64,000 bases of DNA from Desulfosporosinus sp. (GTDB lineage Bacteria > Bacillota > Desulfitobacteriia > Desulfitobacteriales > Desulfitobacteriaceae). The translations under genes and the position numbers were made by a program. Shown piece by piece: positions 34,602 to 41,042 of this stretch (position 1 is its first letter; the number at the start of each line of letters is the position of its first letter). The stretch is from the NCBI GenBank assembly GCA_020692355.1, contig JAIMKP010000013.1, forward strand, positions 1 to 64,000. The letters run 5' to 3'. Below the pieces are notes generated by a model, which worked only from the letters and a program-made list of their open reading frames with translations, did not search any database and was not told where the DNA came from.

Positions 34602-34648
34602 CACCTTTCCTCCCACCCTTGCGTATAGTTTAAGGTGGGAGGGAGGTG
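34602..34648 (+). promoter_or_regulatory. Long hairpin that sequesters the spoVK ribosome site
   Basis: CACCT(TT)CCTCCCACC (34602-34617) pairs with GGTGGGAGG(G)AGGTG (34634-34648), a 14-bp stem with one small bulge. The 3' arm contains all purine-rich Shine-Dalgarno sequence of spoVK and the alternative GTG start. No T-run follows, so translational control fits better than termination. Confidence 0.6.
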
Positions 34649-34657
34649 CCCTTATTC

Positions 34658-35632
34658 ATGCCCATACGTGTCACGTTTCCAGGCCATCAAGCGCCCCCAA
34701 TTGTAAATTCCCCCCAACCGCTGGAGCCTGCACAACCACTGCAGGTTTTAGAGAATGGGCAATCTTGGCGTAAGGGGTCTACCAACAGCAAACAGGCCAA
34801 TGCCCAGACAGAAAAAGAACGGATTCACGAGATTTTAGCGGAACTGGATGCGTTAATCGGGCTGAATTCTGTCAAACAATTAATCCGCGAACTCCAAGCT
34901 TTTGTGGAAATTCAAAAGCGGCGGACACGAGAGAAACTGGTGGCTGAACCGTTGGTTTTACATATGATTTTCAGGGGTAACCCAGGAACCGGAAAAACCA
35001 CCGTTGCCCGCATCGTTGGGAGACTCTTTAAAGAAATGGGAGTTCTGCAAAAAGGGCATATTATTGAATGTGAACGCGCGGATTTGGTAGGCGAGTATAT
35101 CGGACATACAGCACAGAAGACACGGGAACAAGTCAAGAAAGCCCTCGGAGGGGTGCTTTTTGTTGATGAAGCCTATTCCTTGGCTCGGGGAGGGGAGAAG
35201 GACTTCGGAAAGGAAGCAATCGATGCCTTGGTGAAGTCTATGGAAGATAATAAGGAGAGTATGATCCTGATTTTGGCGGGGTATCGTCAAGAGATGGAAT
35301 GGTTCCTGCAAACGAATCCAGGGCTACGCTCGCGTTTCCCAATTCATATTGACTTTCCGGATTACTCTTTAGAGGAATTGTCAGCGATCGGACAGAGTAT
35401 GTTTAGGCAACGTCAGTATGAACTAACCCCTGAAGCTTATGAGGCTTTGCGCCGGATTCTTCTGGGGCTTGTACACACTCATCCCTATGCTGGGAATGCT
35501 CGCCTGATTCGGAACCTGGTAGAACGGACCATCCGCAAGCAGGCTGTGCGTCTGTTTCAGCGCCCGAATTCGACGCGCGATGAGTTGATTCAGATTCTAC
35601 CGGCGGATTTCGATTGGGAAGAACCGGAGTGA
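34658..35632 (+). CDS. spoVK: SpoVK/CbbX-type AAA ATPase
   Basis: AAA+ ATPase of 324 residues related to stage V sporulation protein K. Walker A is FRGNPGTGKTTVARIVG, Walker B GGVLFVDEAYSLARG, and the arginine finger region is NPGLRSRFPIHIDFPDY. A coiled N-terminal leader (EKERIHEILAELDALIGL) precedes the core, and the lid domain ends the protein. The start is uncertain: ATG 34658 is 11 bases after GGAGG, while GTG 34646 would be inside the hairpin stem. Its role in spore maturation is by homology. Confidence 0.88.
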   Translation: MPIRVTFPGHQAPPIVNSPQPLEPAQPLQVLENGQSWRKGSTNSKQANAQTEKERIHEILAELDALIGLNSVKQLIRELQAFVEIQKRRTREKLVAEPLVLHMIFRGNPGTGKTTVARIVGRLFKEMGVLQKGHIIECERADLVGEYIGHTAQKTREQVKKALGGVLFVDEAYSLARGGEKDFGKEAIDALVKSMEDNKESMILILAGYRQEMEWFLQTNPGLRSRFPIHIDFPDYSLEELSAIGQSMFRQRQYELTPEAYEALRRILLGLVHTHPYAGNARLIRNLVERTIRKQAVRLFQRPNSTRDELIQILPADFDWEEPE

Positions 35633-35660: not shown

Positions 35661-37253
35661 TTGGACATTGTCGGAGACTTGTCCGGGATTCGGACGAGCC
35701 AGCTACGGCAACTGGAGGAGCTGGCCGAAATCAAAACGGAACGCACGGAACTTGTGAACCTGGAGCTGGCAGAGGGTTTGGCCCGCTTGAGCGAGGCCTG
35801 GAATCGTGAGATCGCGGTTTTTATTCAACGTTCAGGGAGCGTGGTTGGCGTGGCCGTGGGACGGCATGCCTCCGTGACCCTGCCCAAGCTGAAAAACCGA
35901 TCCTCCCGCCAGATTCGCTGTATCCATACGCATCCTAACGGATCTCCCCGCTTGAGCAGTGTAGACTTTAGTGCCCTCGAAACGCTGGAGTTAGAGGTCA
36001 TGGCAGCGCTCGGCGTGCGCCAGGGAAGGATCACTGGGATTGAAGTCGGATTTTTAACTGAAGCGGGAATGGAGAGCACGCTCCTGCGTGCGGAAGAACT
36101 GGCTGTTTTTGACCTTCGAAATATCCGGCAACTTAGTTCTTTCGACAGGCAAAAGGCCCCTAACAGTGAGCAAGAACGGGCTTTTCTTTTGGGACTTGAG
36201 AATGACGCTGAGCTGGGGCAAGAACTTTTGAGCGAACTGGCAGAACTCTCGCGTTCTGCGGGAGTGGAAGTGGTCGGACAAGCTTTGCAGCCCAAACGTT
36301 ACGGGAGTTCTCAAAGCTATATCGGAAGCGGCAAGGTGGAAGAAGTGTCTCAGATCCTCCAAAACACGAAGGCGAACTTGCTCATTTGCGATGATGAACT
36401 TACTCCGGGTCAAGTTCGTTCTCTCGAAGCAAAAACAGGAATCAAGGTTTTGGATCGAACTACACTGATCCTCGATATTTTTGCCCAAAGGGCGCATTCA
36501 CGCGAAGGTAAGCTACAAGTCGAATTGGCTCAGCTTCAACACATCCTCCCGCATTTAACGGGCCAAGACAGAGGGCTGTCCCGTTTGGGCGGGGGGGTTG
36601 GAACCCGGGGCCCTGGCGAAACGAAGCTGGAAACCGATAAACGTCGGATTCGACAACGAATTGCCCTCTTGCTCCAGGAATTGGCCGAGGTCAAGCAGGA
36701 TCGAGAGGTGAGACGGCAGCAGCGGCTGAAGAGCGGTTTGCCACTTGTGGCTCTAGTGGGGTATACTAATGCAGGCAAGACAACGTTTTTACAAACGGCC
36801 ATGGTGCAAGCGGGGCTAAGTGAGAATGCTCCTGAAGGAGAAAACAAGCTCTTCGCCACGCTGGATCCCATCGTGCGCAAGATTCCGTTGCGAGAAGGCG
36901 GCGCGATCTTGCTTAGCGACACAGTAGGGTTCATTCAGAAACTTCCCCATCAGCTGCTCAAAGCCTTTTTGGCAACTCTGGAGGAAGTACAACAGGCGGA
37001 TGTCCTGGTGCAAATCTTGGATGCCAGTCATCCTCGGGCTCTGCAACAGGCGGAGACTGTGCGCCAGGTTTTAGAGGAGTTAGAGAGTGCGGATAAGCCG
37101 ATGATCACCGTCCTTAATAAGGTGGACAAGGTCGTATCGAGGGCTGAATTGAATCGCCTGGCTGGGGAGCTTCCCCATCCGATTGCGCTTTCCTTGAAAC
37201 GCAAGGATTCGCTCATTCCGGTATGGCGTGCGGTTCATGGGGCCTTAGTCTGA
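35661..37253 (+). CDS. hflX: HflX ribosome-splitting GTPase with N-terminal JAMM-like domain
   Basis: 530 residues, about 100 longer than the usual bacterial HflX. From about 175 on it is a normal HflX: N-terminal domain with YIGSGKVEE, the helical [19 protein letters not shown] linker, G1 [11 protein letters not shown]3 [10 protein letters not shown] and G4 NKVDK. The first 150 residues instead carry [10 protein letters not shown] (E50), [19 protein letters not shown] (H89, H91, S99, D102), an exact E-Xn-H-x-H-x7-S-x2-D JAMM/MPN metalloprotease motif as in RadC and deubiquitinase relatives. TTG at 35661 has GAGGG upstream. HflX rescues stalled ribosomes; what the JAMM-like part does is unknown. 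Confidence 0.92.
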
Positions 37254-37281: not shown

Positions 37282-38589
37282 TTGAAAATGATTAGGGAAA
37301 ATGGGTTGAAGGAGATTTTTGCGATCTTGAAAGTAGATTTGCCGGAGATTATCCGCCGCGCTGCGGTTACTGCGGAAGACGTGTTACATAAACAGATTCC
37401 CGTTGTGCAAGCACGCAGTGAAGTAAATCATGCTAAAGTGCTGCAAGCCTTTCAGAGTGAACAGGTTATGGACTATCACTTACATGGTACAACGGGCTAT
37501 GGTCTGGGAGATACGGGCCGGGAGGTGTTAGACCGTGTCTTTGCCCGCATCTTGGGTACGGAAGCGGCACTCGTGCGTGGACAGTTCGTTTCTGGCACGC
37601 ATGCGATTGCTGCGGCGTTATTCGGGGTTTTGCGGCCGGGGGATCATATGCTCTCGGTGAACGGAAATCCTTATGATACTTTGGAAGAAGTTATCGGATT
37701 AAGGGGAGACGGACAGGGGAGTCTGCGCAATTTTGGGGTAGAATATTCTTCCGTGCCTCTTGATCTTGAGGGAAAGATCCAGTACCCTTTGCTCGAAGCA
37801 GCCGTTCGGCCAAACACTAAATTGCTCATCGTTCAACGCTCCCGAGGTTATGCCTGGCGTCGCTCGCTCAGCATCGCCGAGCTGGCTGAACTTACGCAGT
37901 TTGTGCGCCAGCGGTTCCCCCGGATTCTTGTTTTTGTGGACAACTGTTATGGCGAATTGGTTGAAACTTTAGAGCCTGGTGATGTTGGGGTTGATCTGAT
38001 GGCAGGATCGCTCATCAAGAACCTGGGCGGGAGTCTCGCTCCCACCGGCGGCTACGTGGCCGGGAAAAAGGAGCTTGTCCAGTTGGCTGCCCAGCGCTTG
38101 ACTGCACCCGGAATTGGTGCCCAGGTGGGAGCGAGTCTGGAATGGCAGCGTCTTTTCTTTCAAGGGCTCTACTTCAGCCCACTCACGGTCAGCGAAGCGT
38201 TAAAGGGGGCGATTTTTGCGGCGGCTTTTTGGCAAGACTTAGGATTTGAGGTTAATCCCCTGCCAGAGGCTGAACGCACGGATCTTATCCAGGCGGTGCG
38301 GCTCGGTTCGCGCGAAAAGATGATCGCGTTTTGTCAAGGATTGCAGAAAGGCTCGCCAATTGATTCCCATGTCTATCCTGAACCAGCGGGCATGCCAGGG
38401 TATGAAAACGAAGTAATCATGGCAGGCGGTACCTTTATTCAAGGGGCCACGAGCGAATTTTCGGCTGACGGGCCACTGCGGGAGCCCTATATTGTTTATC
38501 AGCAGGGCGGCATCTCCTATCATTATGTCAAGCTTGGTAATCTGTTGGCGGCCATGGCGCTCTGGAAACAGGGCCTCCTCGAAGTTTAG
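37282..38589 (+). CDS. Methionine gamma-lyase-family PLP enzyme (aluminium resistance protein family)
   Basis: 435-residue fold-type I PLP enzyme of the family Pfam calls Met_gamma_lyase, also annotated as aluminium resistance protein. MDYHLHGTTGYGLGDTGREV and ALVRGQFVSGTHAIAAALFG are hallmark blocks; the PLP lysine is in AGSLIKNLGGSLAPTGG. It may split a sulfur amino acid, but biochemical evidence in the family is slight. The gene follows hflX by 28 bp; in Gram-positives this neighbour pair is common. TTG 37282 is favoured by the GTGAGAG site, ATG 37288 being the alternative. Confidence 0.85.
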   Translation: MKMIRENGLKEIFAILKVDLPEIIRRAAVTAEDVLHKQIPVVQARSEVNHAKVLQAFQSEQVMDYHLHGTTGYGLGDTGREVLDRVFARILGTEAALVRGQFVSGTHAIAAALFGVLRPGDHMLSVNGNPYDTLEEVIGLRGDGQGSLRNFGVEYSSVPLDLEGKIQYPLLEAAVRPNTKLLIVQRSRGYAWRRSLSIAELAELTQFVRQRFPRILVFVDNCYGELVETLEPGDVGVDLMAGSLIKNLGGSLAPTGGYVAGKKELVQLAAQRLTAPGIGAQVGASLEWQRLFFQGLYFSPLTVSEALKGAIFAAAFWQDLGFEVNPLPEAERTDLIQAVRLGSREKMIAFCQGLQKGSPIDSHVYPEPAGMPGYENEVIMAGGTFIQGATSEFSADGPLREPYIVYQQGGISYHYVKLGNLLAAMALWKQGLLEV

Positions 38590-38606: not shown

Positions 38607-39164
38607 GTGGAAGAAGCAGGAGACGTAAAAAAAACCGAAAAAAGCGGTGCGCGGTTTTTGTTGGAGCTTATCGAGATCGTGGTCATCGCCTTTGCCCTTT
38701 CCTGGGTTATGCGCACCTATGTGGTGGAGGCGAGGGTGATTCCGACGGGTTCGATGCTGCCGACCATCCAACTTCAGGATCGCATCATCGTGGATAAGTT
38801 TTTCTTTAAACGGTTCGATGAAGTCCGACCAGGAGACATCATTGTGTTTCGGCCACCGGCGACAGCACATGCTACGGAAGACTTTATCAAGCGTGTCGTG
38901 GGCCTACCTGGCGACAAAGTCGAAATCCGCAACCATCAGACCTACGTGAATGGCAAAGCACTGAACGAGCCCTATGTCTCGGAAAAGTCCAAGAATGACT
39001 ATGGGCCGGTTGTCGTACCCCAAGGGGAGCTGTTTGTCATGGGGGACAACCGCAATAATAGTGACGATTCGCGCATTTGGGGGTTTTTACCGATTGAGAA
39101 TGTCACGGGGCGGACGTTGTTCCGTTATTGGCCGCTCAATCACTTCGGGTCTTTGGCTAAATAG
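38607..39164 (+). CDS. lepB: Signal peptidase I
   Basis: 185-residue single-span membrane serine/lysine protease that cleaves signal peptides. N-terminal anchor LLELIEIVVIAFALSWVM, catalytic serine in IPTGSMLPTI (S49) and catalytic lysine in DFIKRVVGLPGD (K95), then box E GDNRNNSDDSRIWG. The short SipS-type, as expected in Firmicutes. GTG start at 38607 follows AGAGAGG. Confidence 0.95.
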   Translation: MEEAGDVKKTEKSGARFLLELIEIVVIAFALSWVMRTYVVEARVIPTGSMLPTIQLQDRIIVDKFFFKRFDEVRPGDIIVFRPPATAHATEDFIKRVVGLPGDKVEIRNHQTYVNGKALNEPYVSEKSKNDYGPVVVPQGELFVMGDNRNNSDDSRIWGFLPIENVTGRTLFRYWPLNHFGSLAK

Positions 39165-39215
39165 CATGAGACGGGTCCGACTGTCATATAACAATGATGA
39201 GAGGAAGTGGGGAAT

Positions 39216-40319
39216 GTGATAGATAGAGCCTTGCACGTGGCCGTGCTCTTTGGCGGGCAGTCCGGGGAACATGAGGTTTCGCTAAATTCAGCGAGTGCCG
39301 TCCTGCAAGCCTTGGATCGGGATAAGTATAGTGTAGAAACGATCGGCATTTCTCAGTCTGGCCAGTGGTTTTGGGGCGTTACGCCAGAGGGGATCCACGC
39401 CCACGGATTTCCAACTCCGGAAGAGGGGTGTCAAGTCACCTTAGTGCATGATCCGGTGACCCCCCGTTTTCTCGCCTTAGATGGACGGCCTTTGGCGAAT
39501 GGGGGTCGAGTTGACCTAGTCTTTCCGGTGCTGCATGGCCCGTATGGAGAAGATGGAACCATTCAGGGACTTTTAGAGGTTTCGCATGTGGCCTATGTCG
39601 GCTCAGGGGTCTTAGGCTCCGCCCTGGGGATGGATAAAGACCGGATGAAAGCGGTGTTTGCCCAGGCTGGGCTGCCCTTGGCGACTTATCTTACCCTTAT
39701 GCGTTCTGAACTGCGTCGTGATTTGGCCGGATGCATCCAAAAGGTGGAGGATAAACTGGGATATCCGTGTTTTGTGAAACCGGCTAACTTGGGGTCAAGT
39801 GTTGGTATATCCAAGGCGAAGGATCGAGCTGAGCTGCAGGATGCATTAGAACTAGCAGCGGTTTATGACCGTAAGATTGTAGTGGAAGAAACCATTTCTG
39901 GCCGTGAGATTGAGGTTAGTGTCCTGGGCAATGATGATCCAGAAGCTTCTCTGGCGGGGGAGATCCTGCCAGGGAAGGAGTTCTATGACTATGAGGCGAA
40001 ATATCAGGATGCGGGTTCTCAACTTCGGATTCCAGCACCCCTGAGACCGAACACGCTTGTGACCATGCAGCAGATTGCGGTGAAAGCGTTTCAGGCCGTG
40101 GATGCGGCAGGCCTGGGACGGGTCGATTTCTTTCTAACAACGGATGAACGGGTCATCTTGAATGAAATCAATACCATGCCCGGTTTCACCCAAATCTCAA
40201 TGTACGCCAAACTTTGGCAAGCAAGCGGTCTTTCCTATAAAGAACTAATTGATCGGCTCATTGATTTGGGATTGCAACGTTACCAGGATCTGCGGGATCG
40301 GAAAATTACGCGGGTTTAG
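39216..40319 (+). CDS. ddl: D-alanine--D-alanine ligase
   Basis: ATP-grasp enzyme of about 367 residues making the D-Ala-D-Ala dipeptide for peptidoglycan. N-terminal VAVLFGGQSGEHEVSLNSAS, ATP-binding PCFVKPANLGSSVGISKA, metal-binding EINTMPGFTQISMYAKLW all present; the Tyr-linked omega loop EFYDYEAKYQD indicates the D-Ala-D-Ala form, not D-Lac. Start GTG 39216 follows GAGAGG at workable spacing; the GTG at 39207 is too near it. A strong bidirectional terminator follows. Confidence 0.95.
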   Translation: MIDRALHVAVLFGGQSGEHEVSLNSASAVLQALDRDKYSVETIGISQSGQWFWGVTPEGIHAHGFPTPEEGCQVTLVHDPVTPRFLALDGRPLANGGRVDLVFPVLHGPYGEDGTIQGLLEVSHVAYVGSGVLGSALGMDKDRMKAVFAQAGLPLATYLTLMRSELRRDLAGCIQKVEDKLGYPCFVKPANLGSSVGISKAKDRAELQDALELAAVYDRKIVVEETISGREIEVSVLGNDDPEASLAGEILPGKEFYDYEAKYQDAGSQLRIPAPLRPNTLVTMQQIAVKAFQAVDAAGLGRVDFFLTTDERVILNEINTMPGFTQISMYAKLWQASGLSYKELIDRLIDLGLQRYQDLRDRKITRV

Positions 40320-40364
40320 TTCGGGATCCCAATTGGGGATAGGATGGCGTGAATCACGCAAATG

Positions 40365-40409
40365 AAGAAGCCTCTTCGTCCATGCTGGTGATGGACGAAG
40401 AGGCTTCTT
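40365..40409. terminator. Bidirectional terminator between ddl and lexA
   Basis: Perfect 19-bp stem beginning AAGAAGCCTCTTCGTCCAT (40365-40383) with its complement at 40391-40409 and a 7-nt loop. It serves the converging ddl (plus) and lexA (minus) genes; its T tails are short. Confidence 0.85.
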
Positions 40410-40424
40410 GTTCTGCAAAATATT

Positions 40425-41042
40425 TTAACGGATGTGCCGGAAAACACCGATAACTTTGCCGATGACTTTGGCATCTTGAGAAAAGATGGGATCCATGCTT
40501 GAATTCTCCGGCTGGAGACGGATGAGCGTCTTTTCTTTGAAAAAGCGTTTGACTGTAGCTTCCTCGCCGATGAGAGCGACCACAATCTCACCGTTGCGTG
40601 CTGTCTGCTGCTGGCGGACAACAATTTGATCCCCATCTAGGATACCGGCTTCGATCATGCTGTCCCCTTGGACCTTTAACATAAACACTGGTTCTTCGCG
40701 AACAAGTTCGGCGGGGATGGGAAACGTATCTTCGATATTCTCAACTGCGAGAATAGGCTGGCCTGCTGTGACCTTCCCGACGACCGGAACATGCACAACG
40801 CGCTTCGAGGGTTCATCAGGGTTTGAGCCGTCCAACATTTCGATCGCTCTTGGTTTAGTGGGATCCCTGCGGATATACCCTTTTTCCTCCAGAGTCTGTA
40901 AATGTCCGTGCACCGTTGAACTTGACAACAACCCGACCGCATCACCAATTTCACGCACAGAAGGCGGATACCCCTTTTTGCGAATTTCGCTCTTAATAAA
41001 ATCGAGAATGGCAGTTTGGCGTTGGGATAAATCCTTACCCAT
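40425..41042 (-). CDS. lexA: LexA SOS repressor
   Basis: 205-residue repressor with an N-terminal wHTH ([29 protein letters not shown], in two blocks) and C-terminal self-cleaving peptidase: cleavage site A93-G94 in KVTAGQP, catalytic serine in QGDSMIEAG (S128) and lysine in ATVKRFF (K165). ATG at 41042 follows GGAGGCG. A near-consensus Gram-positive SOS box lies 56 bp upstream, indicating autoregulation. Single gene transcript. Confidence 0.97.

Follow-up and report, generated by a model that had tools for sequence, protein, structure and literature searches.

A predicted RadC-like JAMM/MPN domain with a complete motif at the N terminus of HflX from Desulfosporosinus and other Bacillota

The window, a stretch of 64,000 nucleotides from a Desulfosporosinus sp. 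contig, carries an hflX gene (35661..37253, + strand) of 530 aa comprised of a JAMM/MPN-type N-terminal domain followed by an HflX GTPase. Translation begins at a TTG codon with a purine-rich stretch just before it, and a homologue (L004, starting MDIFGDLSGI) has ATG at the same residue. The N-terminal extension, residues 1–143 (35661..36089, + strand), consists of a leading strand and helix (residues 2–22) and a RadC-like JAMM/MPN domain (approximately residues 34–142), as delimited by an AlphaFold2 model, Foldseek matches to RadC and MPN proteins, and hhalign alignment to RadC. A variable linker (residues 144–173, 36090..36179, + strand), with pLDDT values of 51–79 in its second half, leads into the HflX core (residues 174–519, 36180..37217, + strand), which contains the GTP-bdg_N, GTP-bdg_M, and GTPase domains. 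No Pfam or NCBIfam family was found above its cut-off across the ∼143 residues of the extension, and the extended proteins are currently named in databases only as 'GTPase HflX'.

HflX acts in the rescue of stalled ribosomes and in resistance to some ribosome-targeting antibiotics. Residues 174–519 match TIGR03156, a model that does not require the HflX C-terminal domain, with 412.5 bits (cut-off 216.75, E 1.2e-123); the Pfam families GTP-bdg_N, GTP-bdg_M, and MMR_HSR1 all match this part, and the GTPase motifs, including NKVD, can be read in its translation. The earlier note had called the remainder of the protein a normal HflX, which holds for the core, with its GTPase motifs and its TIGR03156 score far above the cut-off, but not for the C terminus, where the HflX C-terminal domain is missing (window 37160–37253). 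The same domain is missing throughout the bacterial family to which this genome belongs (open frames of 535–548 aa); most extended relatives are ∼600 aa long and have it. Compared with HflX as described by TIGR03156, the protein has the same core, motifs, and synteny, and differs in the extra JAMM/MPN domain and, like the rest of its bacterial family, in the absence of the C-terminal domain.

The gene lies in the order typA, SpoVK-type AAA ATPase, hflX, YnbB-type pyridoxal phosphate (PLP) protein, a common arrangement in Bacillota. The upstream neighbor (34646..35632, + strand) is a SpoVK/CbbX-type AAA ATPase that matches TIGR02881 with an E-value of 2.7e-122, slightly under the cut-off, and the downstream neighbor (37282..38589, + strand), a methionine gamma-lyase-like PLP protein with a weak match to TIGR01328, we take to be YnbB from the known synteny. 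Both genes are kept beside the extended hflX in relatives, and a search with PF13167 finds one HflX in the Desulfosporosinus genome. Judged by its GTPase motifs, the spoVK-hflX-ynbB synteny, and its single copy, the gene is an orthologous HflX. The gene order of extended hflX shows this synteny only, with no conserved partner hinting at a substrate, and the extended hflX of Fusobacterium has different neighbors. Past ynbB, the region at 38607–41042 of the window encodes signal peptidase I and, by eye, a D-Ala-D-Ala ligase-like ATP-grasp protein and, in the minus orientation, a repressor resembling LexA.

Within the extension, Glu50, His89-Thr90-His91, Ser99, and Asp102 lie exactly where the earlier note had placed them, and reading of the translation confirms that their spacing fits the JAMM motif, EXnH(S/T)HX7SXXD (PMC300881), without deviation. 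In AfJAMM the histidine residues and the aspartate hold zinc, whereas the glutamate is the predicted acid-base catalyst and the serine the predicted stabilizer of the intermediate (PMC300881). By correspondence, the Glu50 codon (35808..35810, + strand) would specify the catalytic acid/base and is aligned with the RadC glutamate; the His89-Thr90-His91 codons (35925..35933, + strand) would provide two zinc ligands and are aligned with the HNH of RadC and the HTH of AMSH-like proteins; the Ser99 codon (35955..35957, + strand) would provide the stabilizer of the tetrahedral intermediate; and the Asp102 codon (35964..35966, + strand) a third zinc ligand, at the start of a helix (residues 100–108) in the model. 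The glutamate, HTHP, serine, and aspartate were kept in 110 of 110 homologues fetched by the extension or the whole protein, a set gathered in part by patterns containing HTHP, for which reason surveys without this requirement were added. In a 74-sequence alignment with a mean column identity of 39%, the only invariant columns are Glu50, Arg57, Gly59, Gly67, Arg86, His89, Thr90, His91, Pro92, Ser99, and Asp102.

Comparison of sequence profiles relates the extension to RadC. Taken as a single sequence, the extension gives weak Pfam matches (RadC, E 0.06–0.11; Prok-JAB, 0.1), the whole window protein reaching 13.6 bits against RadC PF04002, under the cut-off of 22.1, and such weakness would fit a chance resemblance within an unrelated N-terminal domain. 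The best single members of the family, however, reach E-values of 5e-5 against Prok-JAB and 5e-4 against RadC, and hhalign of the extension against 30 RadC sequences gives a probability of 94% (E 1.2e-7, 92 columns), with Glu50, the HTH, Ser99, and Asp102 placed on the glutamate, HNH, serine, and aspartate of RadC. Reversed and column-shuffled RadC alignments, used as negative controls, all stayed below 1%, and with residues 86–104 masked the remainder still gives the same RadC register, weakly (E 0.008). Detection is reciprocal, in that the Pfam Prok-JAB model picks up extended HflX proteins in three genomes (E 1.4e-4 to 2.9e-4). A search of the PDB with the extension profile placed AMSH-like JAMM proteases at the top (E 0.002), with the Prp8 MPN domain among the weak matches. 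Alignment of the profile with stand-alone Prok-JAB proteins yielded a probability of 2% and covered the motif only, which points to kinship with RadC and not with the Prok-JAB branch. RadC is the best profile match, with all five active-site residues in register.

The predicted structure is that of a divergent MPN domain. The AlphaFold2 model of the window domain (pLDDT 89.8, pTM 0.84) contains, in order, a helix, the strand bearing the glutamate, a further strand, the HxH strand, the SxxD helix, and three strands, with the segment ahead of the HxH strand being shorter than in RadC. Foldseek comparison with the PDB placed RadC at the top (probability 0.92); SRU_2040, a JAB protein, and the MPN domain of Mov34 were also among the best matches. 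A second AlphaFold model, of the representative L027 (pLDDT 90.8, pTM 0.87), matched CSN5 (E 4e-5 to 9e-5), BubCD, and the Caldiarchaeum Rpn11 homologue (probability 1.00), as well as JAMM1 of P. furiosus (TM 0.55 by target length); nearly all of its top 50 matches are MPN proteins, and the Foldseek matches include a structure of an Rpn11 homologue with ubiquitin. The divergence is indicated by the modest TM-scores to solved structures (0.25–0.55). The fold expected by the earlier note is therefore found in two confident models that match RadC, CSN5, Rpn11, and JAMM1. A chance motif was accordingly rejected on the grounds of conservation, profile homology with its negative controls, reciprocal detection, and fold, and we consider it extremely improbable. 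From its sequence and predicted structure, the extension is a RadC-like JAMM/MPN+ domain with a complete, conserved motif, fused to HflX.

To define the spread of the fusion, an extension profile was run against an even sample of 399 Bacillota genomes from across the phylum; the profile derives from intact sequences, so that the count of strongly decayed extensions may be too low. The search gave 74 matches, one of which is RadC itself (G100, E 3e-4), and the remaining 73, all of which were read, are HflX proteins. All five residues are kept in 60 of the 73, spread over 25 family-level groups, and most Bacillota HflX proteins have no extension. Intact copies were also found beyond the phylum in Fusobacterium animalis and in records named Calditrichales (L074) and Gastranaerophilales (L086). 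The last of these, from Melainabacteria, has an intact site and a longer insertion, and its presence suggests that the fusion may predate Bacillota. Related extensions with altered motifs may also occur in proteobacterial and cyanobacterial HflX. Viral contigs scanned with a DNA pattern for the extension gave no match. On the sequences surveyed, the fusion proteins form a family that is widespread and has passed mostly by vertical descent, and are not a peculiarity of the Desulfosporosinus genome.

The site is broken in the other 13 extended proteins, so that family-wide conservation of the five residues, which the earlier note had proposed to examine and whose failure it would have counted against its reading, holds for the majority and fails in two lineages that have lost both zinc histidines. 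In the first (families f42 and f95, six genomes), HTHP is replaced by YLTF, VFHK, or similar and Glu50 is usually gone; in the second (f87, with seven genomes, all from a single genus), FTRL or FTKL stands in place of HTHP, and Glu50 and the serine are retained. A quick tree built on the HflX core, with low support in places, puts each of the two lineages at a position of its own among intact sequences; the decayed sites look like secondary losses, and the tree fits two of them. The decayed proteins (L128, L130, L131, L168–L170, and L171–L177) are natural controls for a non-catalytic role. A long N-terminal HflX region missed by the profile (L142, in G151) resembles the decayed extensions and is possibly a more degraded form.

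Retention of the extension by two lineages without a zinc site indicates that the domain can have a non-catalytic role, and these lineages bear on the possibility that it is an MPN fold binding zinc without being an enzyme, serving in a structural role or for docking to the ribosome or a partner, in the manner of MPN− pseudo-enzyme subunits and the Prp8 MPN domain. The fold is evidently of value there without the site, and the weak profile match to Prp8 is in keeping with such a role. A docking module does not, however, need Glu50 and Ser99, neither of which binds the metal and both of which could vary in a zinc site of purely structural function, and the solved proteins that match best include active isopeptidases. 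The equal invariance of these two residues and the metal ligands favors catalysis, and we regard a purely structural role as unlikely. Where the site has decayed, both zinc histidines are gone, which is in keeping with a zinc hydrolase. The domain is most likely such a hydrolase, probably a peptidase or isopeptidase, that HflX carries to the large subunit of the ribosome.

Ribosome binding and splitting are established for HflX homologues (PMC4770234, PMC12493154), and in the mycobacterial protein a short N-terminal extension touches uL16 and helix 38 and extends as far as H69–71 (PMC12493154). HflX binds the large subunit at its intersubunit face. By analogy with the mycobacterial contacts, the domain at the HflX N terminus would lie close to the path that tRNAs take along this face. 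The chemistry of JAMM proteins is known, and the domain is therefore expected to bind zinc and to hydrolyze an amide bond. A zinc ion would be held by His89, His91, and Asp102, with Glu50 activating a water molecule and Ser99 stabilizing the intermediate. As the ribosome is split, the HflX part would position this site at the intersubunit face of the large subunit, where its most likely target would be a peptide or isopeptide bond in a nascent chain or in a protein bound to the ribosome. Zinc binding, catalysis, and a ribosome-bound substrate are thus what we infer for the extended HflX, with proteins near the tRNA path, or the nascent chain on the split large subunit, as plausible substrates. 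We know of no established peptidase activity for RadC, the nearest relative. Overall, an HflX-borne zinc hydrolase acting on a ribosome-bound protein or nascent chain is the best explanation of the data and a reasonably probable one. The bolder proposal is of a GTP-driven ribosome splitter in many anaerobes whose own zinc isopeptidase acts on stalled ribosomes, its target being a ribosomal protein, a nascent chain, or a novel protein modifier; we lean somewhat against it. RqcH is found in 392 of 398 genomes and hence is uninformative as to a link with extended HflX.

Among ribosomal proteins, bL27, which lies near the peptidyl transferase center and is trimmed in Bacillota, would be a candidate target if the extended HflX replaced the Prp protease that performs this trimming. 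Some genomes with extended HflX, such as four of family f2, do have no Prp match, but Prp is found in most of those listed and in the Desulfosporosinus genome, for which replacement was rejected on this ground; as a general explanation we give it hardly any credence. A further alternative is that the domain is a zinc hydrolase of something other than a protein on the ribosome, such as a small amide, a nucleotide- or tRNA-linked bond, or a sulfur-carrier conjugate, with HflX serving some purpose other than targeting. Bacterial JAMM proteins elsewhere do act in sulfur-carrier pathways (PMC1779556), the same genome has a stand-alone JAB gene beside E1-like and ThiS-like genes, and a viral fold library returned some deaminases along with RadC-like, tail, and minor-capsid proteins. 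Against this, 25 family-level groups keep the fusion to HflX, characterized HflX proteins are ribosome factors, and the sulfur-carrier locus is already served by its own JAB protein, all of which makes such a substrate improbable. At that locus (L001, G000:C41, 1453–2905), an E1-like protein of ThiF/MoeB type and a sulfite-reductase-like gene adjoin the JAB gene, and the C terminus of the ThiS-like protein extends past the GG (GGGQVK). The arrangement looks like a known sulfur-carrier locus, in which the JAB protein may trim the carrier.

Both parts of the extended HflX are of known kinds, and their fusion as a conserved family appears to be undescribed. In the openly available literature on HflX with JAMM, MPN domain, RadC, or metalloprotease domain, there is seemingly no such fusion, and a 2006 survey of bacterial JAB domains leaves HflX unmentioned. 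The 'new combination' of the earlier note can stand to this extent, as a widespread family and not as a feature of this one genome. Mycobacterial HflX has only a short extension of 39–58 residues, which disorders rRNA (PMC12493154). RadC (PF04002), the top PDB match, has its five active-site residues in register with those of the extension, whereas the extended HflX has HTHP for HNHP, a shorter segment before HxH, and the fusion to a ribosome GTPase; no family of the helix-hairpin-helix type found at the N terminus of RadC was matched in the extension, although such short motifs can escape detection. The JAMM/MPN+ isopeptidases CSN5, Rpn11, AMSH, PfJAMM1, and BubCD share the complete motif, and the best of them give Foldseek probabilities of 0.90–1.00, yet no ubiquitin-like partner or E1/E2 adjoins hflX.

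A deubiquitinase-type site in the HflX of many anaerobes, including Fusobacterium, would imply an unrecognized chemical step in ribosome rescue, and an HflX that is both splitter and isopeptidase would, if real, be the first ribosome rescue factor known to incorporate a protease. RadC-like JAMM domains, long without an assigned function, also gain a context from the fusion, with the ribosome as a testable location and Glu50, His89, and Asp102 as sites for simple mutants. The closest parallel is provided by RadC-like DinG helicases (PMC11981726), in which a nucleotide-driven nucleic-acid machine is likewise fused to an N-terminal RadC-like JAMM domain with the glutamate, both histidines, and the aspartate, and with a similarly short loop before HxH. 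They differ in being helicases and not ribosome GTPases and in their HNHPSG signature; profile comparison detects the resemblance to the extension (40%, E 3e-4), with no close sequence kinship in evidence. Four Bacillota proteins of 830–855 aa (L238–L241) carry a RadC-like JAMM domain (IHNHPSG) at the N terminus, ahead of a helicase Walker A region; judging by these features, they are probably RadC-like DinG and would be another JAMM fusion.
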